A stretch of DNA of 55,172 nucleotides from Gemmatimonadota bacterium (GTDB lineage: Bacteria; 4572-55; J002), in NCBI GenBank assembly GCA_003697105.1, contig RFFQ01000170.1, positions 1-55,172 on the forward strand, written 5' to 3'. The notes below the pieces were generated by a model that was not told where the DNA came from, did not search any database, and saw nothing but the letters and a program-made list of their open reading frames with translations. How positions within the stretch are numbered: the first letter of the stretch is position 1; each line of letters begins with the position of its first letter. The position numbers were made by a program, and so were the translations under genes. Positions 19,222-41,652 of the stretch are shown one piece after another.

Positions 19222-20922
19222 ATGGCTCTTCTTATTTATACCGATGAACACGGAAAGGAACACCAAGTCCCTATCGAACGTTCAAAACTGTTGATAGGAC
19301 GCAGCAAAGATAATGATTTAGCGTTGCTTGATATTTACGTTTCACGCTATCATGCAAAAATTACCGTGGAGAGTGATCGATATTACATAGAGGATTGCGG
19401 AAGTACCTATGGCACGTATGTCAACGGTACACAGGAAAAACGGGTATTGTTGGAATATGGAGATGAAATTAAAGTCGGTGAAACCGTACTCCATTTTGTT
19501 AGCGATGAGGTGGAACAGACAAATGAACAATTGGCACAATTGGTCAATAAGCAAAACGCCGGTCAGGCAATGAAGGCATTTAACCAAATCGAACACGAAT
19601 TTGATGATATTCGGGATCAACTCCAAGCCGTTCGTGACTCAAAAGCAGTAGATGTGACCACACTTTTGGAACGCGTCGATCATCTCGGTCAAACGATTGC
19701 CGAAATTCATACTAATTTGGCGGAACTGGAAAAGGCAAGTCAAATCAACGCCACCTTGTACGAAGTGGGCAAAATGATCAATACCGTCTTCGAGTTGAAC
19801 CGCTTGCTCAATCTGGTAATGGATTTAGCTCTGAAAGTGATGAATGCGGAACGAGGGTTTATCATGTTGATCGATCAAGAGACCGGCGAACTGCGAACGG
19901 AAGTTGCCCGCAACATGGATCCCGAAGATGATCAAAGCCTGCTCCAATCCGAATCTTCTGGAACATCCATCAGTCAGGGTATAGCAACCCAAGTGATCGA
20001 AACCGGTGAGCCGATTCTAACAACAGATGCCTCCAATGACCCGCGTTTTATGCGTCAGGCAAGTGTCATTATGTATAACATCCACTCCGTGATCTGTGTC
20101 CCGTTGCGCTCTAAAGAGCAAGAGATCATTGGTGTGATTTACGTGGATAATCGTATTTCCAAAGGCTATTTCACCCAAGATGATTTGGATTTTCTGATGG
20201 CGTTTACCAATCAAGCCGCGTTAGCGATTGAAAATGCCCAGTTGTACAACAGTATTCAGGAACAAGAGCGCATCCGGGAGAATTTACAGCGCTATCTACC
20301 GGCAGAATTGGCAAATCAAATGATGAATCAGGGACAGATTCAATTGGGCGGAGAAGAATGTTTTGTTTCGATTTTGTTCTCGGATATTCAAGGTTTTACC
20401 TCCCGAGCCGAAAAAATGCCGGCAGGGGAAGTGGTGCAAATGCTAAACGCTTATTTTAGTCTCATGACCGACGAAATTTTTAAGCAGGAGGGCACTCTCG
20501 ATAAATTTATGGGGGATGGTATTATGACCATCTTCGGGGCACCCATCCCGCATGAAGATCATGCGCTACGGGCAATTAAAGCCGCTATTGGGATGCGAGA
20601 ACGCCTTAAAGAATTGAACGCGGAGTGGGCTAAAGAAGGCAAAGAACCGCTGGTAATCCGAATTGGAATTGCCAGTGGAACGGTGGTTGCTGGTAACATC
20701 GGTTCGGAACGCCGCATGGATTATACCGCCATTGGAGATGCCGTCAATTTGGCATCCCGATTGGAAAGCGCGGCTTCTGGAGGACAAATTTTGATTGATG
20801 ATATGACCTATGAACTCGCCGCCGGAGTCATTAAAGCCAACCGCTTAGTCCCCATCCGTGTCAAAGGCAAAAGTCGTCCTATTCAGGTATATGAAGTTGT
20901 GGGTCTGGAAACCGATGTGTAA
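19222..20922 (+). CDS. FHA-GAF-class III adenylate/guanylate cyclase
   Basis: 566 residues. An FHA domain (about 5-95; LLIGRSKDNDLALLD, 'VSRYHAKI') binds phosphothreonine peptides. A helical linker follows, then a GAF domain (about 180-345). The C-terminal class III nucleotide cyclase (about 375-560) has both metal aspartates in place (FSDIQGFTSR and FMGDGIMTIFGAP), the substrate lysine in 'LDKFMGDG', and 'DYTAIGDAVNLASRLE' with the transition-state Asn and Arg. It is probably active, most likely making cAMP; base specificity cannot be fixed by eye. It is soluble. It follows a kinase-like protein that seems unable to phosphorylate, so the FHA ligand probably comes from elsewhere. It overlaps the next gene by 8 nt. 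Confidence 0.92.
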   Translation: MALLIYTDEHGKEHQVPIERSKLLIGRSKDNDLALLDIYVSRYHAKITVESDRYYIEDCGSTYGTYVNGTQEKRVLLEYGDEIKVGETVLHFVSDEVEQTNEQLAQLVNKQNAGQAMKAFNQIEHEFDDIRDQLQAVRDSKAVDVTTLLERVDHLGQTIAEIHTNLAELEKASQINATLYEVGKMINTVFELNRLLNLVMDLALKVMNAERGFIMLIDQETGELRTEVARNMDPEDDQSLLQSESSGTSISQGIATQVIETGEPILTTDASNDPRFMRQASVIMYNIHSVICVPLRSKEQEIIGVIYVDNRISKGYFTQDDLDFLMAFTNQAALAIENAQLYNSIQEQERIRENLQRYLPAELANQMMNQGQIQLGGEECFVSILFSDIQGFTSRAEKMPAGEVVQMLNAYFSLMTDEIFKQEGTLDKFMGDGIMTIFGAPIPHEDHALRAIKAAIGMRERLKELNAEWAKEGKEPLVIRIGIASGTVVAGNIGSERRMDYTAIGDAVNLASRLESAASGGQILIDDMTYELAAGVIKANRLVPIRVKGKSRPIQVYEVVGLETDV

Positions 20923-25929: not shown

Positions 25930-27054
25930 CTATTGGTCTAAGATGCGTTGGTAGTAAGCTTCATAACGTGGGATAATCACCTGCGGAGAGAATGATCGCA
26001 AGGCATGTTCGCGCCCTTTACGTCCCATTTCACGCCGGAGGTCGTGATCTTTCAGCAACCGGATCGCATAATCAGCCATCGTATCCACGTCACCGACTTC
26101 CGCCAAATAACCGGTCTCCCCGGATAGTACCACTTCTCGCAGACCACCCGCATTGGAACCGATTACCGGCACACCCGAACTCATGGCTTCCAACGCGGAA
26201 AGCCCAAAACTTTCGTGTTCGCTGGGGAAAAGCATCAGATCACTGAGGGCTAACAAATCGGGTATGCCATCTTGCTTCCCCAAATAGCGAATTTTATCAC
26301 AAATCTTGAGTTGCCGGCAATAGGTTTCCGAAGAAACCCGTTCTGGACCATCACCGACCATCAGCAAAATGGCATCAACTTCTTGTTGGACCCGGTAAAA
26401 AATATCCACCACATCTTTGATCCGCTTGACCGGACGGAAATTGGAGATATGAATCAGCACTTTTTTACCCCGAGAAAGCTGGCAACGACGCATATTACGG
26501 GAGAGAACTCCAGAGAACAAATCTGTATCAATAAAATTCGGAATCACCTCAATGGGTCGCTGGATTTGCAAAGTGCGGATCGTCTCCTGACGCATCCACT
26601 CCGAAACGGTCGTGACCCCATCACTTTTTTCAATAGAAAATTGGGTGATCGGCAAAAAAGAGGCGTCTGTACCCACAATGGTAATGTCCGTACCGTGTAA
26701 GGTAGTGATAACTTTAACCTTATCCGCCCCGACAATTTGTTGTGCCAGATACCCACTGGTCGCATGAGGGATGGCATAATGAACATGTAGCAAATCGAGG
26801 TTTTCGTGGCGGATAATATCGCTCATTTTGGCGGCTAACGAGATCGCATACGGTTGGTACTCAAACAGAGGATATTTCATGACCTCCACTTCGTGAAAAA
26901 AGATATTTTCATGAAAGTAATGATGAAGGCGAGCCGGCATAGCATAGCTAATAAAATGCACCGCATGACCTCGATTGGCGAGTTCCTTGCCCAACTCCGT
27001 CGCAATGATGCCGCTACCGCCATAGGTCGGGTAACAAGTGATACCGATTTTCAT
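25930..27054 (-). CDS. bshA: N-acetyl-alpha-D-glucosaminyl L-malate synthase BshA
   Basis: 374 residues from the ATG at 27054 (AAGGAACTTGC upstream). GT4-family glycosyltransferase that couples UDP-GlcNAc with L-malate, the first step to bacillithiol. The opening [20 protein letters not shown] is the BshA signature, followed by '[15 protein letters not shown]', '[12 protein letters not shown]', and the E-x7-E motif in [14 protein letters not shown]. It lies 23 nt after bshB1 and 9 nt before polX. With bshB1 and bshC beside it, the assignment is secure over other GT4 enzymes. Confidence 0.95.
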
Positions 27055-27077
27055 GCAAGTTCCTTTTGACAAATAGG

Positions 27078-27809
27078 TTATAATGACAAAATAGCCATGA
27101 CATTCTGGGTTGAAACCGGTTCGGACATCCAAAACGGTTCACCATAGCGCACTTGAATTTTGGAGCCCCAATAACTTGCCCGTCCGGTAATGCCTTCCCA
27201 AAACGTTTTACTGCTGATGTACGTCTCCGGCTCACCGGTGGAAGCATTGGCTTGATAAAATTGGCTCTGGTATGCTTGAATGGCGACAAGTTTGTACTCA
27301 AACACATCCGAGACATCCACAATAATCGTGGGTTGCACTGGGATGTAATGGGTAAAATAATAGAGAATCTTAAGCGGTCGATACGGTGTTTGACCGGTAT
27401 CAATTGCCCGCAATCCACTATAAAAAGCGGCTTCTTTTACCAAGTAGCTCGCATGGACGTGATCGGGATGGCGGTCTTCTGGATAGGGGATCAAAATCAA
27501 GTGAGGTTGAAATTCGCGTAACGTCTGAATCACTCGTAACCGGTGTTCGGGAGTCTGCGCAATACCCCCATCTGGGATTTCCAGATTAACACGAACATCC
27601 AACCCCAGAAGCGTACTTGCCGCTTGTGCTTCTTCCGCACGGATTTCGGGTGTCCCGCGCGTGCCCATCTCACCGCGGGTAAGGTCGCAGATACCGGTAC
27701 GATACCCGTGTTGTTTGGATTTGAGCAAAGTTCCACCGCAAAAAAGCTCCCCATCATCTGGATGTGGAGCAAACACGAGGATATCCAATTTCGTGCTTGA
27801 ATCCGGCAT
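27078..27809 (-). CDS. bshB1: bacillithiol biosynthesis deacetylase BshB1
   Basis: 243 residues, LmbE/PIG-L fold. It removes the acetyl group from GlcNAc-malate. The zinc motif APHPDDGELFCGG (about 14-26) and the second motif DRHPDHVHA (about 112-120) are intact, and 'RGEMGTRGTPEIRAEEA' is a family signature. GAGGTCATT precedes the ATG. Between bshC (8 nt) and bshA (23 nt) on one transcript. Confidence 0.94.
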   Translation of the reverse strand: MPDSSTKLDILVFAPHPDDGELFCGGTLLKSKQHGYRTGICDLTRGEMGTRGTPEIRAEEAQAASTLLGLDVRVNLEIPDGGIAQTPEHRLRVIQTLREFQPHLILIPYPEDRHPDHVHASYLVKEAAFYSGLRAIDTGQTPYRPLKILYYFTHYIPVQPTIIVDVSDVFEYKLVAIQAYQSQFYQANASTGEPETYISSKTFWEGITGRASYWGSKIQVRYGEPFWMSEPVSTQNVMAILSL

Positions 27810-27817
27810 AATGACCT

Positions 27818-29425
27818 CTATAATTCAATAAGTCGGTGCGCTACCGGTCGATCATCGATTGCGCCATAAATGGTTTTTATCAGATCAAAGCCATAGCGAA
27901 TCAGGTAATACACAATGTTAAACACACGTTCTTGCAAATTCCCATTCGGGTAGAGGTGAGCTTGTATTTTGGCGAGCTGTCCGGTGATCACCTTCTGGTT
28001 TTTTTGTTGAGCCGCAATGGAACGCTCTTCCAACTTATCAATTTGATATTTAATCTTTTGTAAAGCGTTCTCGGTGGCAGACGCCAAATTGGGGTCAATT
28101 GACCCCACCAATTGTGCCAACGAGCGCAACTCGGCACTCATATTCGCATGAACCTGCGCAAACACCGGCGCTAAATCGATATCCACATCACCGATAACCC
28201 GCCGGAACAGACTTTTACTATCCAGAAACACATCGGTCAGTGAGAGATGATATTTGGCTAAGGATTTACGAATTTTGCCTTCTATAATCGTAAAGGACGC
28301 CCGTGGATAGATCAACGGCATCGCCTGTTCATACAAGTGATACGCCGCTTTGAGTTGGGCAAAATAGGCAATTTCCCCCGGACCTGCCACGTATGCCACC
28401 GTCGGGAACAGTATATCTTGCAGAATGGGGCGCAACACTACATCCGTCGTAAATTTTAACGGATGTGCTTCTATTTCCTGACATAATTCCGTTTCACTAA
28501 AAGCGTGAAGTCCCGCCTGAAACTGATCCCCTTCAATCCGGATACGCTGACGTATTCCATCAACAGTATAAAACAGATGAAGTTGAGAATCTCGTAGCTG
28601 AATCTGTTGGTGGTAGCCGGCATCTTTTAGAGCGTTGGTTTGAGATTGAAGGGCAGAATCCAAAGCGGAGGCGTCACTCACGGCTTTTTGGAATACCGGT
28701 ATATATAGATTCGCACAGGCTTCATCCAATGGATTGAACAACACCAAGCCATAGGTTGCCATTAACTGCGCCAAAAATCGCCCAAAAGCCCCGGAAAACG
28801 TGTATTCTGGGCGGTAGGTATCGTTCAAAAGCGCCAATACGGCAGGTAAAAAATCAGTTACGGGATTATCATCTACAAACGAGTCAATAATCTTGCGAAT
28901 TTCATCGCCCAATCTCCGTTGGCTCACAATTTGTGCCGAATTATCGGGTTGGGGGAGGCTCAGCCGGCGTAACTCGTTTTGCAGAGTGGCATAATCGATG
29001 TGATTCACTTCCGCAAAGTCATGATCAAAGGCTTCCAACCAAAAAACGGGCACACAAGGGACATCATACATCTCCTGCCATTGCGCCGCCAACTTGCAGG
29101 CAGTTAATGCTTTATAGATTGTGTACAAGGGACCGCCGAAAAGCCCAAGTTGTTGTCCGGTAACGATGGTACGAGCACCGTTTTTCAAATGTTGGATGTG
29201 CGTGAACGTCAATTCACTACTTCCAAATTCTCGATTTTGACGTTCCAGAACCGTAATCAACTGGGGGGAACACACCGGCAGGAACGACTCCTCCTGCAAG
29301 AAAAGGTGATCCACATCTGAAAAGCGATATTCAAAAAACGGGGTAATAGATTCGGTTTGATTCAAATAATCCTGATACAGTGAGCTGGTACCGGGCAATT
29401 CGGAGGCATTCACGGTGTGAGACAT
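27818..29425 (-). CDS. bshC: putative cysteine ligase BshC
   Basis: 535 residues, the usual BshC length. It adds cysteine to glucosaminyl-malate, the last step to bacillithiol. The hallmark 'TIVTGQQLGLFGGPLYTIYK' is at about 90-110. Also seen are 'CVPVFWLEAFDHDFAEVNHI' and a long C-terminal coiled coil (LEERSIAAQQKNQKVITGQL), both characteristic. AGGAAATCATC precedes the ATG. It starts 15 nt after a methyltransferase gene and precedes bshB1 by 8 nt. In Bacillus bshC lies away from bshA-bshB1, so having all three together is a useful feature. Confidence 0.96.
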   Translation of the reverse strand: MSHTVNASELPGTSSLYQDYLNQTESITPFFEYRFSDVDHLFLQEESFLPVCSPQLITVLERQNREFGSSELTFTHIQHLKNGARTIVTGQQLGLFGGPLYTIYKALTACKLAAQWQEMYDVPCVPVFWLEAFDHDFAEVNHIDYATLQNELRRLSLPQPDNSAQIVSQRRLGDEIRKIIDSFVDDNPVTDFLPAVLALLNDTYRPEYTFSGAFGRFLAQLMATYGLVLFNPLDEACANLYIPVFQKAVSDASALDSALQSQTNALKDAGYHQQIQLRDSQLHLFYTVDGIRQRIRIEGDQFQAGLHAFSETELCQEIEAHPLKFTTDVVLRPILQDILFPTVAYVAGPGEIAYFAQLKAAYHLYEQAMPLIYPRASFTIIEGKIRKSLAKYHLSLTDVFLDSKSLFRRVIGDVDIDLAPVFAQVHANMSAELRSLAQLVGSIDPNLASATENALQKIKYQIDKLEERSIAAQQKNQKVITGQLAKIQAHLYPNGNLQERVFNIVYYLIRYGFDLIKTIYGAIDDRPVAHRLIEL

Positions 29426-31780: not shown

Positions 31781-31817
31781 AAAAAGACCTGCTGAAGTGG
31801 TGCCAGCAGGTCTTTTT
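31781..31817. terminator. bidirectional terminator between thioredoxin and wecE-like gene
   Basis: AAAAAGACCTGCTG (31781-31794) pairs perfectly with CAGCAGGTCTTTTT (31804-31817). It has T runs on both strands and lies between convergent genes. Confidence 0.92.
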
Positions 31818-32944
31818 TATACCGTAAAGGTTTGAATAGCCTCAATCACGCGTGCTTGATCGGAGGGAGTCAAATCGTTGTAAAACGGAAGGCGAACAAG
31901 CCGGTCACTCACCGACTCGGTGACCGGACACATCCCCGGCTGGCCGCCCAATTGGCGTCCCATTTTAGAGAGATGGAGCGGCAAATAGTGAAAAACAGTT
32001 TGCACACCCCGGTCTCGCAGAAATGAGATAAACCGGTCCCGGCTTTCCAGCGTAGGCAATAGTAAGTAAAAGAGATGTGCGGAATGATGACAATGTGCGG
32101 GTACCACCGGCAATTGGACATCTTGTGCCGCTGCCCAATCCGAAAGTCCGGTGTAATACGTTGACCAGATTTCGTGCCGTCGCTTTTGAATCTGGTCTTT
32201 ATGTTCAAACTGAGCAAATAAAAATGCGGCTAATAGGTCGGAAGGTAAAAAGCTTGAACCAACATCCACCCACGTATATTTATCGACTTGACCTCGAAAA
32301 AACCGGCTACGGTCTGTGCCTTTCTCCCGGATAATTTCAGCGCGTTCAATAAACCTTTCCGCATTGATGAGCAACGCGCCCCCTTCGCCACAATGAAAAT
32401 TTTTGGTCTCATGGAAGCTTTGTGTCGCCAGAGCGCCAAACGTACCCAAATATTGACCATAGTAGGTTGCAAATAACCCGTGGGCATTATCCTCAATAAC
32501 TAAAATGTTGTGGTGGTTTGCGATGGACACAATCGCATTCATTTCGCACGCGACCCCCCCATAATGGACGGGTACAACGGCTCGGGTTCGCGGGGTTATT
32601 TTGGACTCCAATAGGGTTTCATCCAAATTGAGTGTGTCCGGACGGACATCAATAAACACCGGGGTTGCTCCTCGCACTAAAAACGCATTGACCGTCGAGA
32701 CAAACGTAAATGCCGGCACAATCACCTCGTCCCCGGGCTGAAGATTGAGCAACAGTGCGGACATTTCCAACGCATCGGTACAAGATGTTGTCAGCAATAC
32801 TTTTTTCACACCCAACGTATCTTGTAAAAACGCATGACATTTTTGAGTGAACACGCCGTCACCCGAAATTTTGCCGCGTTCTACTGCTTCCGTCATATAC
32901 TGCATTTCTTTCCCCGTCATGTGGGGTCGATTAAACCGGATCAT
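31817..32944 (-). CDS. wecE: dTDP-4-amino-4,6-dideoxygalactose transaminase (WecE/RffA type)
   Basis: 375 residues, DegT/DnrJ/EryC1/StrS fold. It closely follows WecE: 'SGDGVFTQKCHAFLQ', 'VLLTTSCTDALEMSALLL', 'GDEVIVPAFTFVSTVNAF', 'FIDVRPDTLNLDETLLE', 'PVHYGGVACEMNAI', the PLP lysine in SFHETKNF, and 'EIIREKGTDRSRFFRGQVDK'. It would convert dTDP-4-keto-6-deoxyglucose to a 4-amino-4,6-dideoxyhexose for a surface glycan. Partner genes rmlA/rmlB are not in the window. It overlaps the flippase-like gene by 14 nt and is last in the glycan operon. Confidence 0.9.
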   Translation of the reverse strand: MIRFNRPHMTGKEMQYMTEAVERGKISGDGVFTQKCHAFLQDTLGVKKVLLTTSCTDALEMSALLLNLQPGDEVIVPAFTFVSTVNAFLVRGATPVFIDVRPDTLNLDETLLESKITPRTRAVVPVHYGGVACEMNAIVSIANHHNILVIEDNAHGLFATYYGQYLGTFGALATQSFHETKNFHCGEGGALLINAERFIERAEIIREKGTDRSRFFRGQVDKYTWVDVGSSFLPSDLLAAFLFAQFEHKDQIQKRRHEIWSTYYTGLSDWAAAQDVQLPVVPAHCHHSAHLFYLLLPTLESRDRFISFLRDRGVQTVFHYLPLHLSKMGRQLGGQPGMCPVTESVSDRLVRLPFYNDLTPSDQARVIEAIQTFTV

Positions 32945-33917
32945 GGACTGTTTCTATCCTCGCTTGAATAGACCGTAATGACAAACCTTCCTGAATGAAA
33001 AAGATGCCCCCCAGTGCCGAAACTACCCAAACCACCACCCGGTTTAAAAGCGCAACAGCCAGCCCCTGAGGTAACGCTACACCAAACATCGCAAGTGAGA
33101 CCGTGATAGTACCTTCCCGAATCCCCAAAGAACCCAACGTTACCGGTAACATCGAAACCAACGTCGTCAAAGACAAAACAACCACTAAATCCAAGAGATG
33201 AATATCTGCGCCAAAAGCACGTATAAAAAAATAAAATCGGAGTAACCGGGCAATATTGAATAAAACGGCAACGAAAAATGCGGAACTAAGCCGGGTGAAT
33301 GGAATACCAGCGATAATGTGCCGGAAAGAATCGTATTTCTCCCAGCCTAACCGGAGAAACCGGTCAAACCATGACTTTTTGAAAAGGAAAAAGTAACCCC
33401 CGATGAGGATGCCCAAACCTGCGCATACCAATAACCAGACGGGGTGAATGTTAACCTGCAAACTAAGTTGGTGCTGACGTGCGAGGTCAACAATCCGGTT
33501 GAAATCCATTAATACGATCAAACAACCCGCAGTGACCAATATCCCGAGTCCCATCAAGCGATCAAAAGAGATCAGAACAATGGGTTTCATCCATTCATCA
33601 TATTTTTGCCGGAGTGCAAATACCCGGTAGGCATCCCCACCGACATTGCTAAACAAAAAGTTGCTAAAAAATAGCCCAACAAAATAGAGCCTAAATACAA
33701 AACGGAATGATAACTCATATATTCTCAATAGGATATAAAGTCTTAGAATATCAAAGAACGTGGCACATATAAAAAAGACAAGCCCGATAAAAAAGGGTTG
33801 AAACCTTAAATTTCGGAAACTTTCAACGAGATTGCTGAAATTTACATGATAAATTAACCCGCCAAATAACCCCAGAACCAAGACGAGTTTAAGAATAAAA
33901 AAAACGTTTTTTTTCAT
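32931..33917 (-). CDS. LPG_synthase_TM / UPF0104 membrane protein (AglD-like flippase domain)
   Basis: 328 residues from the ATG at 33917. Eight or so membrane helices span the whole protein. Family signatures: 'SNFLFSNVGGDAYRVFALRQ' (about 85-104) and 'VVLSLTTLVSMLPVTLGSLGIREG' split across the second half, both typical of PF03706. Members are the transmembrane part of lysyl-PG synthases and the C-terminal part of archaeal AglD. In glycan loci they are suspected of moving lipid-linked sugars. It overlaps the upstream methyltransferase by 29 nt and wecE by 14 nt, so it is tightly coupled. Confidence 0.88.
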   Translation of the reverse strand: MKKNVFFILKLVLVLGLFGGLIYHVNFSNLVESFRNLRFQPFFIGLVFFICATFFDILRLYILLRIYELSFRFVFRLYFVGLFFSNFLFSNVGGDAYRVFALRQKYDEWMKPIVLISFDRLMGLGILVTAGCLIVLMDFNRIVDLARQHQLSLQVNIHPVWLLVCAGLGILIGGYFFLFKKSWFDRFLRLGWEKYDSFRHIIAGIPFTRLSSAFFVAVLFNIARLLRFYFFIRAFGADIHLLDLVVVLSLTTLVSMLPVTLGSLGIREGTITVSLAMFGVALPQGLAVALLNRVVVWVVSALGGIFFIQEGLSLRSIQARIETVHDPV

Positions 33918-34755
33918 GTGGGCATTCGTTTTTTCGGGCAACAAATAGACAGCTCGTCCCGGTTGGGATCGTCTTTCCCTGTTTAATTTTAGCAAGTTCC
34001 GGGCGTAGCAACCGGCGAATCAGTTTAGAATCTACACCGCCAGACGTACCATGTTCGGATGTACTCGATAATAACCGGTTATTCCGGAAGAGTCTCAACC
34101 GGAAGGGGAGTGTCCGTAGCAGAAAAATCGGAACAATTAACGGCTGAAAAAAATAGGTAAAAAACACCATTTCGAATCGATCCAGTAAGCATTTTTGTAA
34201 CGTTTTGAAGGTGTAACGCCGGAAATGACCCGCCCGAACATCACTAAATGACCAGAGCCACGAGTACGCGGGTACCGTGCCATAAATAAGCCCGTGATCC
34301 GTTAAAATGGTGTGAATCAATTGAATAAAGCGGTCGTCATCTGGAATATGTTCCAGCACATCAAAAAATCCGACCGCACTCACCGATTTCGCCGGGAAAT
34401 GGGCATCTTCTAGTGTACTACAAATCACATTTGGGATTTGGCGATACGTTTTAGCATTGAACGCACCCGTAGCCCCCGGTTCGAGTAAGATAGCCTCCAC
34501 CCCATCGTCCAAGAGGCGGCGTGTAACAAACCCGTTCCCCCCACCGACATCCAACAAGATACCAGTTGGCGGGAATCGACGTACAATCGTTGAGATGCAC
34601 TCATTACGGTGTTGGAACCAAAACGAATCATCTTCAATTTGAAAACAATTCAGATTACCATCTTCAGGATATGAGATGGCAGACGTACTCCTCTCACTTC
34701 GCCAAATTCCGAGATCATCTTGATATAAATTTGGATTTAATTGATTTACATTCAT
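33889..34755 (-). CDS. class I SAM-dependent methyltransferase of the glycan island
   Basis: 288 residues. Motif I is GILLDVGGGNGFVTRRLLDD (about 64-84). Then come 'ILLEPGATGAFNAK' and 'FFDVLEHIPDDDRFI', the Methyltransf_23/11 arrangement, and 'GTVPAYSWLWSFSDVRAGHF' seen in sugar- and lipid-glycan methyltransferases. A hydrophobic patch at about 213-235 could touch the membrane. The product is probably an O-methylated sugar or lipid carrier. It overlaps the flippase-like gene by 29 nt. Confidence 0.85.
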   Translation of the reverse strand: MNVNQLNPNLYQDDLGIWRSERSTSAISYPEDGNLNCFQIEDDSFWFQHRNECISTIVRRFPPTGILLDVGGGNGFVTRRLLDDGVEAILLEPGATGAFNAKTYRQIPNVICSTLEDAHFPAKSVSAVGFFDVLEHIPDDDRFIQLIHTILTDHGLIYGTVPAYSWLWSFSDVRAGHFRRYTFKTLQKCLLDRFEMVFFTYFFQPLIVPIFLLRTLPFRLRLFRNNRLLSSTSEHGTSGGVDSKLIRRLLRPELAKIKQGKTIPTGTSCLFVARKNECPHEKKRFFYS

Positions 34756-34788
34756 CTTGAAGTTCTGAAGTATTGCGCACTACATGGT

Positions 34789-35685
34789 TTAAGCAAGCGG
34801 TACAGGACGCCCATCCCCTAAAATGACAGGCGAGTTCTGAAAAAGTTCATCTACATAGCGGTCATCGGAATGGAACATCTCCGCAACTCGCTGGTAATCC
34901 CTTTCGGAGTATTTATCTTCAGTGGGTGGTTTTGGCGCTGTTGAAGTTTGGGTAGAACCCAAATAATCAAACCAATTTCGGACAACGCGAAGAACCGGTG
35001 CCGGCATAGTTTTGATTAGGGCATCCACAACACCCCGTTTTTGCAACAGGCGGTCAAACCACTCAATCCGGCGACGACCCCGCGCATTTATTTTTTTATT
35101 GGTGTAATTTCCTTCTTCAAAATAAGGGGGAACACCGATAAACCGTTCAAGCGCTTGCAACAAGGCTAAGGAATGCGTGCCTAAAATGGAAAAATCGTAT
35201 AAAAACAAGTTTGAGCCAAATTCATCCCGAAAGCGGGAGATGGTATTGCGAATTTTACCATCATCAAAATTAAAAATGACCTGTTTTCCTTCGCGTTCTA
35301 CCGTGCACCCATTTAAAAATTCTTGGAACGGCGGCACCACAAAATTTCCGTCGTATTGTTCGTATAAGGAAAAAATCCATTCAGTCGGTTTTCGGATCCC
35401 CAGAATAATTTTGGAATCTGGGTTAAAGTCTAAGATGCGGTCAATCGCTCGTGGGTCCATGAAATAATTTCCACAAATATCAATTGCCATTTGGTTATCC
35501 CGCATGTCAGTGAAAAAATTTAGATACCATTCCAACCCATTATCAAAATTATAAGCAAAATACGCCAGCTCCTTACGCTGAGGTACGTAGATATGCGGGT
35601 GCTTTTGAAGATTATGATATAAAAAGGTCGTCCCAGATCGGGACATCCCAGCATGAATTACAATCCGATTTCGATCTACCATCAT
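34789..35685 (-). CDS. sulfotransferase (PAPS-dependent), first
   Basis: 298 residues (a second ATG follows immediately). The 5'-phosphosulfate loop is HAGMSRSGTTFLYHNLQKHP (about 11-30). The 3'-phosphate motif is 'ILGIRKPTEWIFSLYEQY' (about 94-111). It would transfer sulfate from PAPS to a hydroxyl or amine, here most likely on the island's glycan. It is 21 nt from a second, only distantly similar sulfotransferase. No PAPS-synthesis genes are nearby. Confidence 0.88.
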   Translation of the reverse strand: MMVDRNRIVIHAGMSRSGTTFLYHNLQKHPHIYVPQRKELAYFAYNFDNGLEWYLNFFTDMRDNQMAIDICGNYFMDPRAIDRILDFNPDSKIILGIRKPTEWIFSLYEQYDGNFVVPPFQEFLNGCTVEREGKQVIFNFDDGKIRNTISRFRDEFGSNLFLYDFSILGTHSLALLQALERFIGVPPYFEEGNYTNKKINARGRRRIEWFDRLLQKRGVVDALIKTMPAPVLRVVRNWFDYLGSTQTSTAPKPPTEDKYSERDYQRVAEMFHSDDRYVDELFQNSPVILGDGRPVPLA

Positions 35686-35706
35686 GTGATACCTATCCTG
35701 TTGAAA

Positions 35707-36840
35707 TTATAAAACAGATTTCAGCGTATAAAAGACATCTTCAAATAAAAAATAAGCCGTATGGTGGGGTAATAACTCAGATTCATTACAGAGGAGTTGG
35801 ATTCGAGTTTGTTCCTGAGCAACATGCACCGGGTCTGTGCTATAATTTAGCGAAAAATGGGCACGTTGAATGGACACCGGTTCCGTAAACGAACGGGGGT
35901 CATAACTGGTTTTGATGTCAGGGTACATTAACGGATATTCCAGAGCCAGCATCTCGGGGAAACAGGTATATTCGGTATATTGGATGAGGTCCGGCGGCAA
36001 TAGGGCTTGATATTTCCCCACGGATTGAGGCGTTACTCCCGCTACCGGTTGAAATGAGGAGTTCCCCATCCACGGTTCACCATTTTGATCCAAAATGCCC
36101 GCCTGAAATAGATCAGAAGGAAAGCTTGCGATCTCCAGCCAATTCGCCAGTCGGTTGAGCATCTCCACCGGCTTCGCTACGATATCCTCATACCGCACCC
36201 AGACAAAGTTTGGGTGGTGTTGCAGGTGCAACGCATACGCCACACTTTTACGCCAATTTCGGAGATTAAATAAGGTGGGGCGTGCGCTCCCAATATAGGT
36301 CTTTCCGTTTCCATAACCCATCGAGGTCAGTACATCGCGCGGATCACGAATTACAATCAAACATTTAAAGCCCTGATCGAGGAGAAACGGTAAAAATTCC
36401 TCACAAAGGACCTCTTTTGAGCCTACATATTCTACAGATTTTCCCTTTTGGCGAAAGAAATATAAAAACGCCTTAAAAATGTGGAGCCACACCCCCTTAG
36501 TAAGATGATCGATAAAATCAGAGAGACGATCCAACCTTGTGTTTTGCCCAGTGTACCCTTCCATCGCGATAAATAGACGTTCTACTTGATGCGGCGTCAA
36601 CGTATAATCCTGTAAAAAGCGATGGAATTGATCCAGAGTATATCGAGTTTCTAAGAAGCCATGCGTCAGCGCATAATATTCATCTTCACCACATTCTTGG
36701 CGGAGAAAATCACGTTTGGCTTGAATAAATAAATACGGGAAGGGTTGCGATAACACCGATAGTTGAGGATGGTTACAGAGTAATTTATCCAGCAAGGTTG
36801 TCCCCGACCGTAACATCCCCGTGAGGAAAAGATACTTCAT
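35707..36840 (-). CDS. sulfotransferase (PAPS-dependent), second
   Basis: 377 residues. The 5'-PSB loop is LTGMLRSGTTLLDKLLCNHP (about 6-25) and the 3'-PB motif 'LIVIRDPRDVLTSMGYG' (about 159-175), the Sulfotransfer_3 arrangement. 'FVWVRYEDIVAKPVEMLNRL' is also typical. The start overlaps the stop of the GT2 gene by 4 nt (ATGA), so it is translated together with the glycan assembly enzymes. The two sulfotransferases are quite different in sequence, suggesting two acceptor positions. Confidence 0.9.
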   Translation of the reverse strand: MKYLFLTGMLRSGTTLLDKLLCNHPQLSVLSQPFPYLFIQAKRDFLRQECGEDEYYALTHGFLETRYTLDQFHRFLQDYTLTPHQVERLFIAMEGYTGQNTRLDRLSDFIDHLTKGVWLHIFKAFLYFFRQKGKSVEYVGSKEVLCEEFLPFLLDQGFKCLIVIRDPRDVLTSMGYGNGKTYIGSARPTLFNLRNWRKSVAYALHLQHHPNFVWVRYEDIVAKPVEMLNRLANWLEIASFPSDLFQAGILDQNGEPWMGNSSFQPVAGVTPQSVGKYQALLPPDLIQYTEYTCFPEMLALEYPLMYPDIKTSYDPRSFTEPVSIQRAHFSLNYSTDPVHVAQEQTRIQLLCNESELLPHHTAYFLFEDVFYTLKSVL

Positions 36841-37784
36841 GCCTCCAATCCTTGCTGCTGGCGGATCACATAGGTGGGTTTATGTTCTACACCGGATATA
36901 ATACGGAGAAGGTATTCGCCAATCACACCAATCGCAAACAGCAATAGCCCTCCGATAAATAAAATGGTTACCATCAGCGAAGACCAGCCCGCAATGGCGA
37001 CCCCCCAAACCACCTTTTTAATCAGGATATAAAGCGCCAGCAAAAAGCTAAATAGAGAAATTGTAATACCGATATAGCCAATTGATTTTAATAAAAAGGC
37101 AGAATTATTGATAATCAAATTACTAAATACACGGACCAACTTACCAAAGGTATATCCGGTTTTACCTTCTTTCCGTTTCCCATGTTCTGCCGGCACGCCC
37201 ACAATATCCTTGCTGACATAAAACATCAATGCCGGAATAAATGGATTGGGGGTATGAATGGTGAGCATAGCGTCAATGACGGATCGCCGGATTAACCGGA
37301 ATGAGGACAGTTGAATATGCTTGGGTTTGCCAATTAAAATATGGTCAAACCAACCTTTTAATTTGCTGGTGATACGCTTAAAAGCACTATGGTACTTTTT
37401 GCGAAATTCAATAATGACAATATCATGATGTTGCTGGGCAATCAGTTTGGGAATATCTTCGGGGTAATGTTGTAAATCATCATCCATGGTAATGATATAA
37501 TCGCCGCGGGCACGTGCCATTCCGCAAAGTGTCGCCGCTTGCTGACCAAAATTCCGCATTAACTGAATAATTCGGATGTGCGAATTGGATTGAGCCAATT
37601 GGGTTAATACCCGCCAGGTCTCTGGACTGGGCGAAGCATCATCAATAAATATTAATTCATAATCCGCCGCTGGTAGTTGTTCAAAAACGGCATGGACCCG
37701 ATCCGAAAGTTCGACCAAACTCTGCGCAGTGTTGTAAACCGGAACCACTATCGAATAAAGGGTAGAGGGGGCAGATGCGTTCAT
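36837..37784 (-). CDS. GT2 polyprenyl-phosphate glycosyltransferase (GtrB/ArnC/DPM1-like)
   Basis: 315 residues. The GT-A domain opens YSIVVPVYNTAQSLVELSDR, has 'IFIDDASPSPETW' and the DxD motif in 'IITMDDDLQHYPEDIPKLI' (about 94-112). Two C-terminal transmembrane helices (about 231-255 and 264-290) are the GtrB/ArnC layout. It probably loads a sugar onto undecaprenyl- or dolichyl-type phosphate, giving a donor for transfer on the outer face. It overlaps both neighbours by 4 nt. Confidence 0.92.
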   Translation of the reverse strand: MNASAPSTLYSIVVPVYNTAQSLVELSDRVHAVFEQLPAADYELIFIDDASPSPETWRVLTQLAQSNSHIRIIQLMRNFGQQAATLCGMARARGDYIITMDDDLQHYPEDIPKLIAQQHHDIVIIEFRKKYHSAFKRITSKLKGWFDHILIGKPKHIQLSSFRLIRRSVIDAMLTIHTPNPFIPALMFYVSKDIVGVPAEHGKRKEGKTGYTFGKLVRVFSNLIINNSAFLLKSIGYIGITISLFSFLLALYILIKKVVWGVAIAGWSSLMVTILFIGGLLLFAIGVIGEYLLRIISGVEHKPTYVIRQQQGLEA

Positions 37785-38479
37785 GAGTGGGAAAAGCTTT
37801 TCATGTACTTTGTGGCGTCCGGTCCCGTATTGAAAATCAGGTCAATAATACTGACCTCATGGGCAAACGGCGGATACAACTGGGGATATTCAGGGTAACC
37901 GGAATAATCCATCCATTCTAACTGTATGTTCTCCGAACGAAATACTTCCTCGGATAGATAGGCTTTAGCGGCGGGTCCCGAGAGATAACTTGTCGCGTTG
38001 ACTTTTTTGAGTAGTTCAATGACACGTTCGGCTTTTTTGTGGGTTAAAGCATAATTTTCGGAGTTATCAAATTCAGTCGTGATCCCCAATATATGGTGGC
38101 TGATAAATTTAATAAAAGTTTGATTTAATTCGGATAATCTCCGCCACGTCTGCCCCCAATAAAAATCTTTGATGACCGGTGCGTACTGTTTGAAAAAGGG
38201 TGCTTTGGAATAATTCGCTTCAATAATATTCCAATGTTTGCGTTGCCATGAAGAATCCCGCAACTCAACTTCATTGATCAACCGGTGTTCATCCGTACCA
38301 CACGGGATTGACAACCATTTTAGCCCTTGGGGAGTTTTTATTCGATTCCGATTGCGCCAATCCAGCTTTGTATATTGGAGGTCATCATGAAAAATAAAGA
38401 GATCGACCTGATTAATAATGTCAAAATATCCTTTCCACGGGATATAATTGGACTGGAGAATTGCCACTTTTTTACCCAT
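37781..38479 (-). CDS. WbqC family protein
   Basis: 232 residues. Signature 'AILQSNYIPWKGYFDIINQ' at the start and 'DLFIFHDDLQYTKLDWRNRN', both characteristic of the family. WbqC-like proteins are found in O-antigen and other surface-sugar loci, but their reaction is not settled. Soluble. It starts 9 nt after the STT3-like gene and overlaps the GT2 gene by 4 nt. Confidence 0.93.
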   Translation of the reverse strand: MGKKVAILQSNYIPWKGYFDIINQVDLFIFHDDLQYTKLDWRNRNRIKTPQGLKWLSIPCGTDEHRLINEVELRDSSWQRKHWNIIEANYSKAPFFKQYAPVIKDFYWGQTWRRLSELNQTFIKFISHHILGITTEFDNSENYALTHKKAERVIELLKKVNATSYLSGPAAKAYLSEEVFRSENIQLEWMDYSGYPEYPQLYPPFAHEVSIIDLIFNTGPDATKYMKSFSHS

Positions 38480-38488
38480 CAGTTCATC

Positions 38489-40687
38489 TCATCTCAAATC
38501 AAATTGCAAAAAGCCGGCATTCTGAATCATCTCTTCCGTGACTTCAAACGTAACGGTGTCCTGTTCGGTGGTGACCGTGTACGGACCCGCCGTTGTAATA
38601 TCAGACATATTCACTGACAAATCAACCGTCGCATAGGGAACAACCGTTTGAACGATGCCGGTACTATCAGCAACCAGATGTTGTTGATATTCATAATGAC
38701 TACCGGTATTTGTCGTTAAGGGAGCAGTTAGTTTTAAGGATGCCTCCGGTAGCGTGTGGAATACCAGTTTGGCACCCGGCACCCGCTCATAAACTAAATA
38801 AGCCACATAAGAACCGGTGACTACCTCATTTGTCATCAAGTATGAACTTTCAAACACAAGCCGAAAATGCGATAAACCTTGCAATTGGTCTTTATCCAAA
38901 AGATACTGATGCCCTTTCATTTCCCCTAACGCGGTACCCATTGTTCGATAAAAGCGATCATAAAGCTCAAATTGAACATACCCTTCTTCGCTTTCATCAC
39001 TATCAAAATAATCCTGCTGCAGACGACCTTCTTTTTCCAAAGACTCAAAAACCCGGTAGGAATAAAAGAAGGAACCGGGTACCATCACATACCGAACATT
39101 TAAATCTTGGCATAACTGGTATGCTTCAGATTCATCTTCGGAAAGCAAAAAGGTATGGTATGCTCGATTACCGGCACTTTCCATCCGCATGTTGCTACCG
39201 GTAGTCGGTCGGTGCGCATGAAAAATAATGGAAAACCCATCGTTATAATGGGTCAAAATACCATATTCCGGGACATGCTCGGAAGTATAATAGCAACAGG
39301 TTGGGGGAGTATGCTCTTTTAGCCACGCTCCAACTTCATTAATGGCTTCGTAATGTGCGGGTTTAAAGATAATTTTGATGGAATAATAGCCCATAGCCAG
39401 AATCGATACAAACCCAATCAGGAAAAAAATCGCTACCCGAGACCGTATCCGGTCGGTACTATCTAGTTCCTGATATATATCCCAGAGTTTCACCATCACA
39501 AACGCCAGCAATAGAGCTAAAACCAGCGAAAACCCCTCGGCAAACCGGAACCCTTGGATGGCTAACGCACCAAATAAGATGCTCCAGATACAGAACAATA
39601 ACACGAGTTTTCGGTTATTCAGTTGGTAAAAAAGAAAACCCAATATAAACGGTAAAGAAACAACACTATATGAAAAATGCTGGAAAAACTCATCGGCACT
39701 CAGGTTTTCAAATTCTAAAATGGAAGTACCCGCCACAAAGTTAGCCCCCCCCATCACGGACTCAAGCACCTGACTCATAAATAGAATGACAACACCGATC
39801 AACATCACGTTAATGATAATCAGATTAGCGGGACGAACCTGTAGATATAAGCGATAGAGGAATAACGCCAGAAAGGTATAAAAAAACAGCAAAAAATGAA
39901 GACCCGAAAGCTGGTTAAAAATAAAGCGATCCAAATGGACAGACGTATCCAAAAGATAATAGGGTAAGATACTTACGCATGTGATAAAAAATCCCAGAGC
40001 CATAAACGACGTGAACGCTTTATGCTCCTTAAAAAAGAAAAAATACAGATAGATAAAAATCAAAAAAATGGTGAGAAAAACAACAATAAAGGTAAAGTTT
40101 AGTAAGGCAAGCGTAAGTGATATACCGAAAACAACCGCCCACCGGATGGCTTTCCACTCACTTTGAATCCCTTTTACCATTGACAAAACAAGACTCATAT
40201 AAAAGATGGCTTCAATACAGTGATGATCGGGGCGTCCAAATAACACGTATGCCAAATGGGGGGAAAAGAACATGAATAAAACTGCCGCCCAAAATCCGGT
40301 GCGGCGGTCCGCAATCGTTTTTCCGAGGTAATATAGTAACCAAATGGAAAAAATATTCATTAATGGAGGTACAACCGCTGCCGCCCATTCAAACTTTTCA
40401 CCAACGGGGTCTCCTAAGGTCAACAGAAAGGTGAGGCCGGCAAGTAAATAACTAAAAAGATGTTGCCGCATCGGCAACCCTTCGGGATAGTTATTATAGA
40501 AATCCAACGGCGCAATATACCCTTGATGCAGGATCATCTGGGCATGCCTCATATGATAATACCCATCAAATCCATAAAAGGTTAAAACGCCATTTTGGAC
40601 AAGGATTACATAATAGAGAGCGGGTAAGAAGAAAGCAAGAAGAGCTAAAAGAAGGTAAACAACTGGTTCCGTCCGATCATTAGCCAT
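38489..40687 (-). CDS. STT3/AglB-like oligosaccharyltransferase, divergent
   Basis: 732 residues: about 12 membrane helices (to about 455) then a globular extracytoplasmic domain. The first catalytic motif is FYGFDGYYHMRHAQMI (Asp41). The second is FGRPDHHCIEAIF (about 152), matching the 'G-x-x-D-H-H-x-x-E' STT3/AglB pattern. The soluble-domain WWDYG signature that holds the acceptor Ser/Thr is not present; 'VPEYGILTHYNDGF' is in the same place. It would move a lipid-linked glycan to protein asparagine. It lies 23 nt after a pilin-like gene. Such enzymes are rare in bacteria outside epsilon-proteobacteria and some deltaproteobacteria and candidate phyla. A GT-C enzyme with another acceptor remains possible. 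Confidence 0.85.
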   Translation of the reverse strand: MANDRTEPVVYLLLALLAFFLPALYYVILVQNGVLTFYGFDGYYHMRHAQMILHQGYIAPLDFYNNYPEGLPMRQHLFSYLLAGLTFLLTLGDPVGEKFEWAAAVVPPLMNIFSIWLLYYLGKTIADRRTGFWAAVLFMFFSPHLAYVLFGRPDHHCIEAIFYMSLVLSMVKGIQSEWKAIRWAVVFGISLTLALLNFTFIVVFLTIFLIFIYLYFFFFKEHKAFTSFMALGFFITCVSILPYYLLDTSVHLDRFIFNQLSGLHFLLFFYTFLALFLYRLYLQVRPANLIIINVMLIGVVILFMSQVLESVMGGANFVAGTSILEFENLSADEFFQHFSYSVVSLPFILGFLFYQLNNRKLVLLFCIWSILFGALAIQGFRFAEGFSLVLALLLAFVMVKLWDIYQELDSTDRIRSRVAIFFLIGFVSILAMGYYSIKIIFKPAHYEAINEVGAWLKEHTPPTCCYYTSEHVPEYGILTHYNDGFSIIFHAHRPTTGSNMRMESAGNRAYHTFLLSEDESEAYQLCQDLNVRYVMVPGSFFYSYRVFESLEKEGRLQQDYFDSDESEEGYVQFELYDRFYRTMGTALGEMKGHQYLLDKDQLQGLSHFRLVFESSYLMTNEVVTGSYVAYLVYERVPGAKLVFHTLPEASLKLTAPLTTNTGSHYEYQQHLVADSTGIVQTVVPYATVDLSVNMSDITTAGPYTVTTEQDTVTFEVTEEMIQNAGFLQFDLR

Positions 40688-40710
40688 ATGGGTCTAGTTT
40701 ATAAAAGTTA

Positions 40711-41166
40711 TTAATCATTGGTGTATTGATAATCCAACGCATGGCAAGGAAACTTATCATACTCCGCATCCGGCGGATCATAGGGCCACGGGTCTCCGTT
40801 ATCGGGCCGGACCCCAGGACCTAAAGGCGACCAGACAATAATATTCCCCGTAGAGACATCCCCCCAAATTCCATATTGCTGCCCCGGTTTACCACCAGCA
40901 ACTTCAGGTATCTTGGTAAAATGATGTGCGTTGATCAGGTTTGTCCAACCGTCCGTACTACCATCCACATTTTGCTGGGTAAACTGCATGTACAATTCAA
41001 TCTGGAGAACGATTTCGCGCATGTCCTTTTTAGCTCGGGCACACAATGCTTTCTGCTGAACCGTACCAAATGAACGGATCGCAATGGTAGCAAGCACGCC
41101 GAGAATAACTAAGACAATAATGAGTTCGACGATAGTAAAACCGACAGATCGTTTCATCATGAGCAT
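40711..41166 (-). CDS. type IV pilin-like protein, second
   Basis: 151 residues; several in-frame starts (GTG 41169, ATG 41166, 41160, 41157) cannot be separated because no clear ribosome site exists. The class III signal is short, with cleavage G|FTIVE, so Phe at +1 and Glu at +5. Then comes the hydrophobic helix (LIIVLVILGVLATIAIRSFG). The C-terminal region has 'CARAKKDMREIVLQIELYMQ', like pseudopilins. Cys in the stalk and near the end could pair. No N-x-S/T sequon is present. It lies between the pilin and the STT3-like gene. Confidence 0.85.
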   Translation of the reverse strand: MLMMKRSVGFTIVELIIVLVILGVLATIAIRSFGTVQQKALCARAKKDMREIVLQIELYMQFTQQNVDGSTDGWTNLINAHHFTKIPEVAGGKPGQQYGIWGDVSTGNIIVWSPLGPGVRPDNGDPWPYDPPDAEYDKFPCHALDYQYTND

Positions 41167-41181
41167 CACGATTAAATAGGA

Positions 41182-41216
41182 ACAAGAAAGGGTAGGTTTG
41201 TTTAGAACCTACCCTT
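41182..41216 (-). terminator. terminator between pilin and pilin-like genes
   Basis: On the minus strand AAGGGTAGGTT pairs with AACCTACCCTT (plus coordinates 41206-41216 and 41188-41198) across a 7-nt loop, followed by TCTTGTT. It would make the pilin message abundant, with partial read-through to the genes downstream. Confidence 0.75.
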
Positions 41217-41253
41217 GCTTCTACGTGAACAAAACGCTAGTTCGTCCAATTAA

Positions 41254-41652
41254 TTATTGCAACACACAGCACTTACCAACACCATTGTTTGCGGCAGCAA
41301 CGTTGATCTTACCATTAGCAATACTTGTAGAGATCACATAAGCAGTGGCATTGCTGTCATTGTTGAACGGATTCGCCGGGATCGACTTCAGATACGGGCC
41401 ATCATAGCCAGACGGACCCGTTGCGGCTACTAAATTCGCCACACTCGAAACATCGGCGCTGGTATCGGTCATGTACTTGTTAGCCGCGTCCAAAATCTGC
41501 TTCAGGTTAGCAATACAAGCTTTGCACTTCGCTTTATTCTGAACTTTCAGGAAGTTCGGAATCGCGATAGCGGCAAGGATACCGATGATGACCACAACAA
41601 TCATCAACTCGATGAGCGTGAAACCGCTCTTGCTATTACGAAAGTTCTTCAT
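41254..41652 (-). CDS. type IV major pilin
   Basis: 132 residues from the ATG at 41652 (AAGGAGGATGTCTC upstream, a very strong site). The leader KNFRNSKSG is cut before FTLIELMIVVVIIGILAAIA, with Glu at +5. The mature protein is about 122 residues, with Cys pairs (KCKACIANL; C-terminal GKCCVLQ) probably forming a loop. It carries D-S-N-A-T near residue 103, an extended bacterial N-glycosylation sequon, overlapped by N-D-S. The pilin has a sigma-54-like promoter at 41746-41762. No pilus assembly genes (pilB, C, D, Q) are in the window. Confidence 0.93.
   Translation of the reverse strand: MKNFRNSKSGFTLIELMIVVVIIGILAAIAIPNFLKVQNKAKCKACIANLKQILDAANKYMTDTSADVSSVANLVAATGPSGYDGPYLKSIPANPFNNDSNATAYVISTSIANGKINVAAANNGVGKCCVLQ

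Follow-up and report, generated by a model that had tools for sequence, protein, structure and literature searches.

A predicted bacterial pilin-glycosylation operon around an AglB-type oligosaccharyltransferase with a degenerate +2 acceptor pocket

The stretch of DNA analysed here (the window; 55,172 nt, contig RFFQ01000170.1 of GenBank assembly GCA_003697105.1, from a Gemmatimonadota bacterium) carries ten open reading frames (ORFs) on the minus strand at 31817-41652, which form a single operon-like run around a gene for an oligosaccharyltransferase (OST) of the archaeal AglB type. Judged from its genes, this island is on balance probably a dedicated pilin-glycosylation operon. Direct support comes from gene content, homology, fold, the conservation and loss of motifs, and the recurrence of linkages to pilin genes and to GT2 glycosyltransferase genes. 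Together, a bacterial clade in which the catalytic core is kept and the acceptor pocket lost, and the repeated linkage to pilin genes, suggest dedicated sugar-coating of pili under a different target rule.

The enzyme has the Pfam domains AglB_L1, AglB_core and STT3, each over its cut-off, and scores 234 bits against TIGR04154, below the cut-off of 450, which makes it, by this sequence measure, a diverged relative rather than a standard archaeal STT3. A profile of nine bacterial relatives, one of them the window protein itself, matched Archaeoglobus fulgidus AglB (AfAglB; 5gmy) at 1.9e-90, with the match spanning the C-terminal domain, and the best PDB matches of an AlphaFold2 model built on a 29-row alignment (pLDDT 78.6, pTM 0.80) were four AfAglB structures (TMq 0.74-0.81), including 7e9s (E 9.6e-29, TMq 0.81). 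An earlier note on this DNA had called the protein STT3/AglB-like and proposed structure prediction against AglB as a check; domains, profile match and predicted fold all agree with an AglB-type enzyme, the fold does not refute that reading, and an unrelated GT-C protein is ruled out by the AfAglB profile match and the AfAglB-like predicted fold. The Pfam scan gave no match to Wzy_C (O-antigen ligase), the family mark of PglL/TfpO. Relatives were found with a three-member alignment as query, a five-member alignment being too divergent; the window enzyme alone found no relative in a search of the named genomes, and no match came from the one other genome of the same class searched, in a poorly sampled lineage.

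The likeness to archaeal AglB (AfAglB-L; 5gmy, 3waj, 7e9s) takes in the fold, the AglB_L1 C-terminal domain, the DXD motifs (D41; DHH), the TIXE motif and the equivalent of Arg-375, whereas the window enzyme differs in its degenerate WWDYG and DK motifs, in having ~17-18% identity in the structural alignment, and in lying within a bacterial pilin operon. PglB of Campylobacter and Desulfovibrio shares the N-OST catalytic logic and the GT-C fold (TMq ~0.5-0.56), but has retained WWD, recognises N-X-S/T and takes a diphosphate-linked donor; a survey of PglB mentions no pilin linkage (PMC4894442).

Known N-OSTs are taken to recognise N-X-S/T by means of a conserved WWD pocket. Two DXD motifs, together with the glutamate of TIXE, serve the metal and the Asn amide, and the WWDYG and DK/MI motifs bind Ser/Thr at sequon position +2 (PMC8342417, PMC7226087). 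Motifs were compared across 78 aligned full-length proteins, including 11 of the bacterial clade of the window enzyme and 63 from archaea. Asp-41, Asp-154, Glu-325 and Arg-381 are present in 11/11 clade members and in 61-63 of the 63 archaeal proteins. By contrast, the first Trp of WWDYG is found in 0/11 clade members versus 61/63 archaeal proteins (Fisher P = 1.9e-11), the Asp in 3/11 versus 62/63, and the Tyr in 0/11 versus 60/63; such P values take no account of relatedness among the proteins and so overstate the case, although the contrast itself is plain. The region aligned ungapped between conserved flanks (YGIL....G....RP), and the window enzyme also lacks the second Trp, which the ten other clade members keep. 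Its DK motif is lost as well (VRYVMVPGSFF). The strict DK pattern occurs in 0/11 clade members, a weak test given that it catches just 28/63 archaeal proteins, and the MI form, looked for by eye alone, yielded no motif that would complete the pocket. Two archaeal AglB-like proteins from Methanoregulaceae (L079 and L122) are also without the first Trp (SSWDYG and APWEQG), so the pocket change is not strictly bacterial. In these alignments it is mainly the acceptor +2 pocket that has changed, and the catalytic residues are kept. Because WWDYG was looked for and is absent, the enzyme is placed in an AglB-derived clade and not among canonical N-X-S/T oligosaccharyltransferases.

In a quick maximum-likelihood tree a branch with SH-aLRT 98 separated the 11 clade members from the archaeal sequences, while four other bacterial proteins, three patescibacterial and one gammaproteobacterial, grouped elsewhere, among archaea. 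A single clade for all 15 bacterial AglB-like proteins was rejected (approximately unbiased test, p = 4.8e-8). The clade of 11 is likely rather than certain on this tree because its terminal branches are long (2.28 for the window enzyme); the phyla of four genomes (G129, G365, G208, G059) were represented by 1-5 genomes each in the searches. Archaeal-type OST homologs in bacteria are known, and published work already describes at least two transfers of AglB from archaea into bacteria (PMC4973528).

Besides the window, four bacterial lineages have a pilin gene next to an AglB-like gene, which in two of them was acquired separately from archaea. G365/G099 have the same order as the window, pilin first; in G064 the two genes are convergent; in L107, a gammaproteobacterial metagenome-assembled genome (MAG), the pilin lies 111 nt upstream of an AglB-like gene with a near-canonical motif (AWWEIG); and in L050, a Staskawiczbacteria MAG, the OST and a GT2 gene lie between pilB-pilT-pilC-five pilins and pilD. 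This last locus (L050:55-14857, JAPLYZ010000004.1) is a complete type IV pilus cluster, minor pilins included; its AglB-like protein has ARCDVG at the motif, and its pilins hold 2-5 sequons each, four sharing NVT at mature residue 23. In G365 (L021:6066-17982) the order is pilC-pilS-pilR-Wzy_C/TPR-pilin-AglB-like-YfhO, such that two putative kinds of glycosylating enzyme flank one sequon-less pilin. Large TPR membrane proteins, by eye possibly a TMTC kind of glycosylation enzyme, lie beside AglB-like genes in G064, G403 and G404 (L026:4497-8134 and L040/L041). G266 and G129 each have ~55 N_methyl pilin-like genes, none adjoining the AglB-like gene.

Among ten searched genomes with pilin-gene counts, a pilin lay within 0.6 kb of the OST in two, versus 0.075 expected (P = 0.002), and the same test at 1.5 kb gave P = 0.013; it leaves out the window, which was picked for this feature, and its distances were chosen with the data already in view. 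Neither L107 nor L050 was part of it; both belong to a different collection and count in addition. Pilin linkage is recurrent, not general. The synteny search proposed by the earlier note thus had a divided outcome: linkage of AglB and pilin genes recurs in unrelated bacteria, whereas the part with sulfotransferases, WbqC, methyltransferase and WecE was seen nowhere else. Pilin-specific O-oligosaccharyltransferases (O-OTases) are likewise often encoded beside their target, with knockout evidence for ComP (PMC3643930, PMC12645811), and act on a periplasmic pilin with a polyprenyl-linked sugar; unlike the window enzyme, they belong to the WaaL/Wzy_C family and make Ser/Thr-linked products. From its motifs and neighbours, the window enzyme would most likely work like a pilin-specific oligosaccharyltransferase with an N-OST engine.

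The first gene of the island, pilin 1, is the top N_methyl match among 13 in the 4.18-Mb genome and may be its major pilin; it is the likely main acceptor. Both pilins of the island are over the N_methyl cut-off and have a prepilin leader with GFTxxE and a hydrophobic helix, and the genome has 14 matches to T2SSE-family (PilB/PilT-type) ATPases, 12 of them over cut-off. A predicted pilin structure model was discarded (pLDDT 55). No N-X-S/T sequon occurs in pilin 2. The earlier note had proposed N-glycosylation of the adjacent pilin: the AglB-type identity of the enzyme supports this in part, whereas the ordinary N-X-S/T reading is put in doubt by the decay of both +2 motifs in this enzyme and its bacterial relatives. 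Under that ordinary reading, the enzyme would glycosylate NDS-NAT of pilin 1 despite its altered motif and perhaps, as a general N-OST in the operon by happenstance, many other surface proteins. The AglB fold with its full catalytic set and the two overlapping sequons of pilin 1 speak for it, as does L107, where the near-canonical enzyme adjoins a two-sequon pilin (the L107 and L050 pilins both have several sequons). Yet we think it unlikely, given that HYNDG replaces WWDYG, that the DK motif is lost, that loss across the clade is too specific for noise, and that two other clade pilins are sequon-free. The sequon pattern of the adjacent pilins is in line with a changed acceptor rule in the degenerate clade, with small numbers and depletion unproven.

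The same sequon-less neighbours, and the loss of the sequon-reading pocket, would also suit an AglB-derived enzyme that had switched to Ser/Thr of the pilin and become functionally like TfpO or PglS, and bacterial pilin glycans are described as O-linked (PMC12645811), in the literature consulted for comparison as the work of WaaL-family enzymes. Against such O-linked transfer, which we regard as very improbable, the Asp and Glu that polarise the Asn amide are invariant, and the O-OTase-like neighbour could account for the sequon-less pilin of G365/G099.

The remaining genes outline how a donor could be made. The GT2 protein matches ArnC (9hwj) and GtrB (5eke) over nearly its full length, catalytic domain and C-terminal membrane helices alike. 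ArnC and GtrB each attach a single sugar to undecaprenyl or polyprenyl phosphate. Against the NCBIfam ArnC equivalog the GT2 protein scores 173 bits, far below the cut-off of 529, a score that names no particular sugar. WecE produces a 4-amino sugar and ArnC acts on one; the two would suit each other, although the equivalog score is low. The donor of AfAglB is monophosphate-linked, and the ArnC-like GT2 would supply a donor of this kind. A GT2 gene adjoins the OST in five lineages (the window, G095, L050, L068 and L070). For UPF0104 proteins a flippase role has been predicted, and in archaea their genes occur close to those for STT3-like and AglD-like proteins (PMC5898192). In Haloferax the N-glycosylation pathway combines AglD, in which GT2 and a UPF0104 membrane domain are joined, with a protein of the STT3 family (PMC5898192); the window has the same elements, with GT2 and UPF0104 as separate genes and a GT2 that is ArnC/GtrB-like. 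GT2, candidate flippase and OST would plausibly make up a complete route from nucleotide sugar to protein.

An ArnC-like GT2 gives a further alternative some weight, since lipid A transferases usually work with one: the OST homolog may have drifted to an ArnT-like role, with lipid A, some other glycolipid or a polysaccharide as acceptor of the polyprenyl-phosphate sugar, and with the pilins as neighbours by chance or through shared surface expression. Loss of the +2 pocket for an acceptor peptide would be expected of such an enzyme, and sulfotransferases and WbqC occur in polysaccharide clusters. We nevertheless hold this to be quite unlikely, since the enzyme keeps the pair of Asn-amide-binding residues and the TIXE motif, which binds the peptide main chain, and since the pilin linkage recurs, even inside a full pilus operon.

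Tailoring of the sugar is suggested by four genes between the OST and the flippase candidate. Both sulfotransferases lack a leader and so would act before flipping; supply of 3'-phosphoadenosine 5'-phosphosulfate (PAPS) is indicated by one APS-kinase match in the genome (1.4e-73). For the WbqC-like protein there is no credible solved relative and no informative paper in the literature searched. The earlier note had predicted a sulfated, methylated amino sugar; its gene families are confirmed, while the sugar itself is a prediction from gene annotation, and a sulfated glycan is possibly the product.

Transcription would run from pilin 1 through pilin 2, the OST, WbqC-like protein, GT2, sulfotransferases 1 and 2, methyltransferase and UPF0104 protein to WecE (Table 1). 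All ten genes reported in the earlier note are present as ORFs at the positions it gave, and its family calls agree with the Pfam and NCBIfam assignments. With likely start codons, the gap between pilin 1 and pilin 2 is 84 nt (96 nt if the likelier ATG at 41157 is used); those that follow are 23 (pilin 2 to OST), 9 (OST to WbqC), -4 (WbqC/GT2), -4 (GT2/sulfotransferase 1), 21 (between the sulfotransferases), 33 (sulfotransferase 2 to methyltransferase), -29 (methyltransferase/UPF0104) and -14 nt (UPF0104/WecE). The 84-nt gap, which holds a strong hairpin that the earlier note does not mention, folds with z = -3.3, and 0/200 shuffles fold as well. A strong ribosome site (AAGGAGG) precedes pilin 1, and together with the hairpin in the gap it would, attenuator-like, give an excess of pilin 1 over the downstream genes. 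A scan for sigma-70-type promoters did no better than on shuffled sequence.

Table 1. Features of the island, with coordinates in the window
Feature	Position	Strand	Evidence
Pilin 1, type IVa-like prepilin, leader MKNFRNSKSG / FTLIE	41254-41652	-	Pfam N_methyl 7.3e-10
Overlapping sequon-like NDS-NAT, pilin 1 mature residues 88-93	41344-41361	-	Direct reading
11-bp hairpin, probable partial terminator/attenuator	41188-41216	-	Between pilin 1 and pilin 2; short U-rich tail
Pilin 2, pilin-like, MKRSVG / FTIVE	40711-41157	-	Pfam N_methyl 1.4e-5; start set at ATG 41157
AglB-type oligosaccharyltransferase homolog, GT-C, 732 aa	38489-40687	-	Pfam, profile match, predicted fold
D41	40565-40567	-	Catalytic residue; codon checked
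D154 (D154-H-H)	40226-40228	-	Catalytic residue; codon checked
E325, glutamate of TIXE motif (here SILE)	39713-39715	-	Invariant in alignment; codon checked
R381	39545-39547	-	Catalytic residue; codon checked
HYNDG, residues 480-484, at WWDYG position	39236-39250	-	Alignments; codons checked
WbqC-like protein	37781-38479	-	Pfam PF08889, 264 bits
GT2, ArnC/GtrB-like polyprenyl-phosphate sugar transferase	36837-37784	-	Pfam Glycos_transf_2; PDB ArnC 9hwj 2.9e-45, GtrB sll0501 (5eke) 3.4e-41
Sulfotransferase 1, RSGTT PAPS-type motif, no leader	35707-36840	-	Sulfotransfer_3 4.6e-14, well over cut-off; weak match to tyrosylprotein sulfotransferase
Sulfotransferase 2, RSGTT motif, no leader	34789-35685	-	Sulfotransfer_3 27.4 vs cut-off 27.0 bits; heparan sulfate 3-O-sulfotransferase 1zrh 1.2e-9
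Class I S-adenosylmethionine (SAM) methyltransferase	33889-34755	-	Methyltransf_23 3.4e-11
UPF0104/LPG_synthase_TM, candidate lipid-sugar flippase	32931-33917	-	PF03706 99 bits
WecE, dTDP-4-amino-4,6-dideoxygalactose transaminase	31817-32944	-	NF008687 575 bits vs equivalog cut-off 375; PDB 4piw 2.5e-130

Elsewhere in the window, the bacillithiol genes bshA, bshB1 and bshC are adjacent at 25930-29425, each over its NCBIfam cut-off, and a Ser/Thr kinase with PEGA-like repeats (by eye; 15610-19110) is followed by an FHA-GAF-guanylate cyclase-domain protein (19222-20922).

From these genes we infer the reactions, the order of steps, the sulfation of the glycan and the acceptor residue of the predicted pathway. 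WecE would make dTDP-4-amino-4,6-dideoxygalactose in the cytoplasm, and the methyltransferase, the WbqC-like protein and the two PAPS sulfotransferases would tailor the sugar in some order. The ArnC/GtrB-like GT2 would then place it on undecaprenyl phosphate, giving a monophosphate donor like that of AfAglB; the UPF0104 protein may flip the carrier; and within the membrane the AglB-type enzyme would pass the sugar on to pilin 1, either ahead of pilus assembly or in its course. Asn is the probable attachment site, since the enzyme retains the two acidic residues for the Asn amide, and recognition at +2 is perhaps changed, because the Ser/Thr pocket is lost. As a tentative proposal, more doubtful than that of the dedicated operon, the bacterial AglB-type branch without the Ser/Thr +2 pocket would consist of pilin-dedicated N-glycosyltransferases with another acceptor rule and a single polyprenyl-phosphate sugar as donor, here a sulfated 4-amino-4,6-dideoxyhexose.

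Several observations weigh against a dedicated pilin pathway of this kind. The sequons of pilin 1 number 2 versus 1.55 expected from composition, which is not significant, and the pilins of G365/G099 and G064 carry no N-X-S/T. No pilin lies beside the OST in 8/10 other searched genomes (G266, G129, G095, G208, G059, G286, G403 and G404), and on its other side the G365/G099 pilin is flanked by the Wzy_C/TPR protein, an O-OTase-like rival for it. The sulfotransferase, WbqC, methyltransferase and UPF0104 genes stand beside no other bacterial OST examined, and the flippase activity of UPF0104 proteins is a prediction in the literature as well.

The earlier note knew of no such bacterial combination; the full gene set is indeed unmatched in the searched data, whereas archaeal-type OST homologs were already known in bacteria (PMC4973528). 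No report of the motif loss, the pilin linkage or the island arrangement was found in the open-access literature searched, a coverage that leaves most subscription journals outside. If the proposal is true, a natural clade with an N-OST core and no +2 pocket would show how acceptor choice can be rewired, and it would add an N-OST route to the decoration of pili, with possible use in glycoengineering. It also poses a direct question: can Asn be glycosylated outside N-X-S/T?

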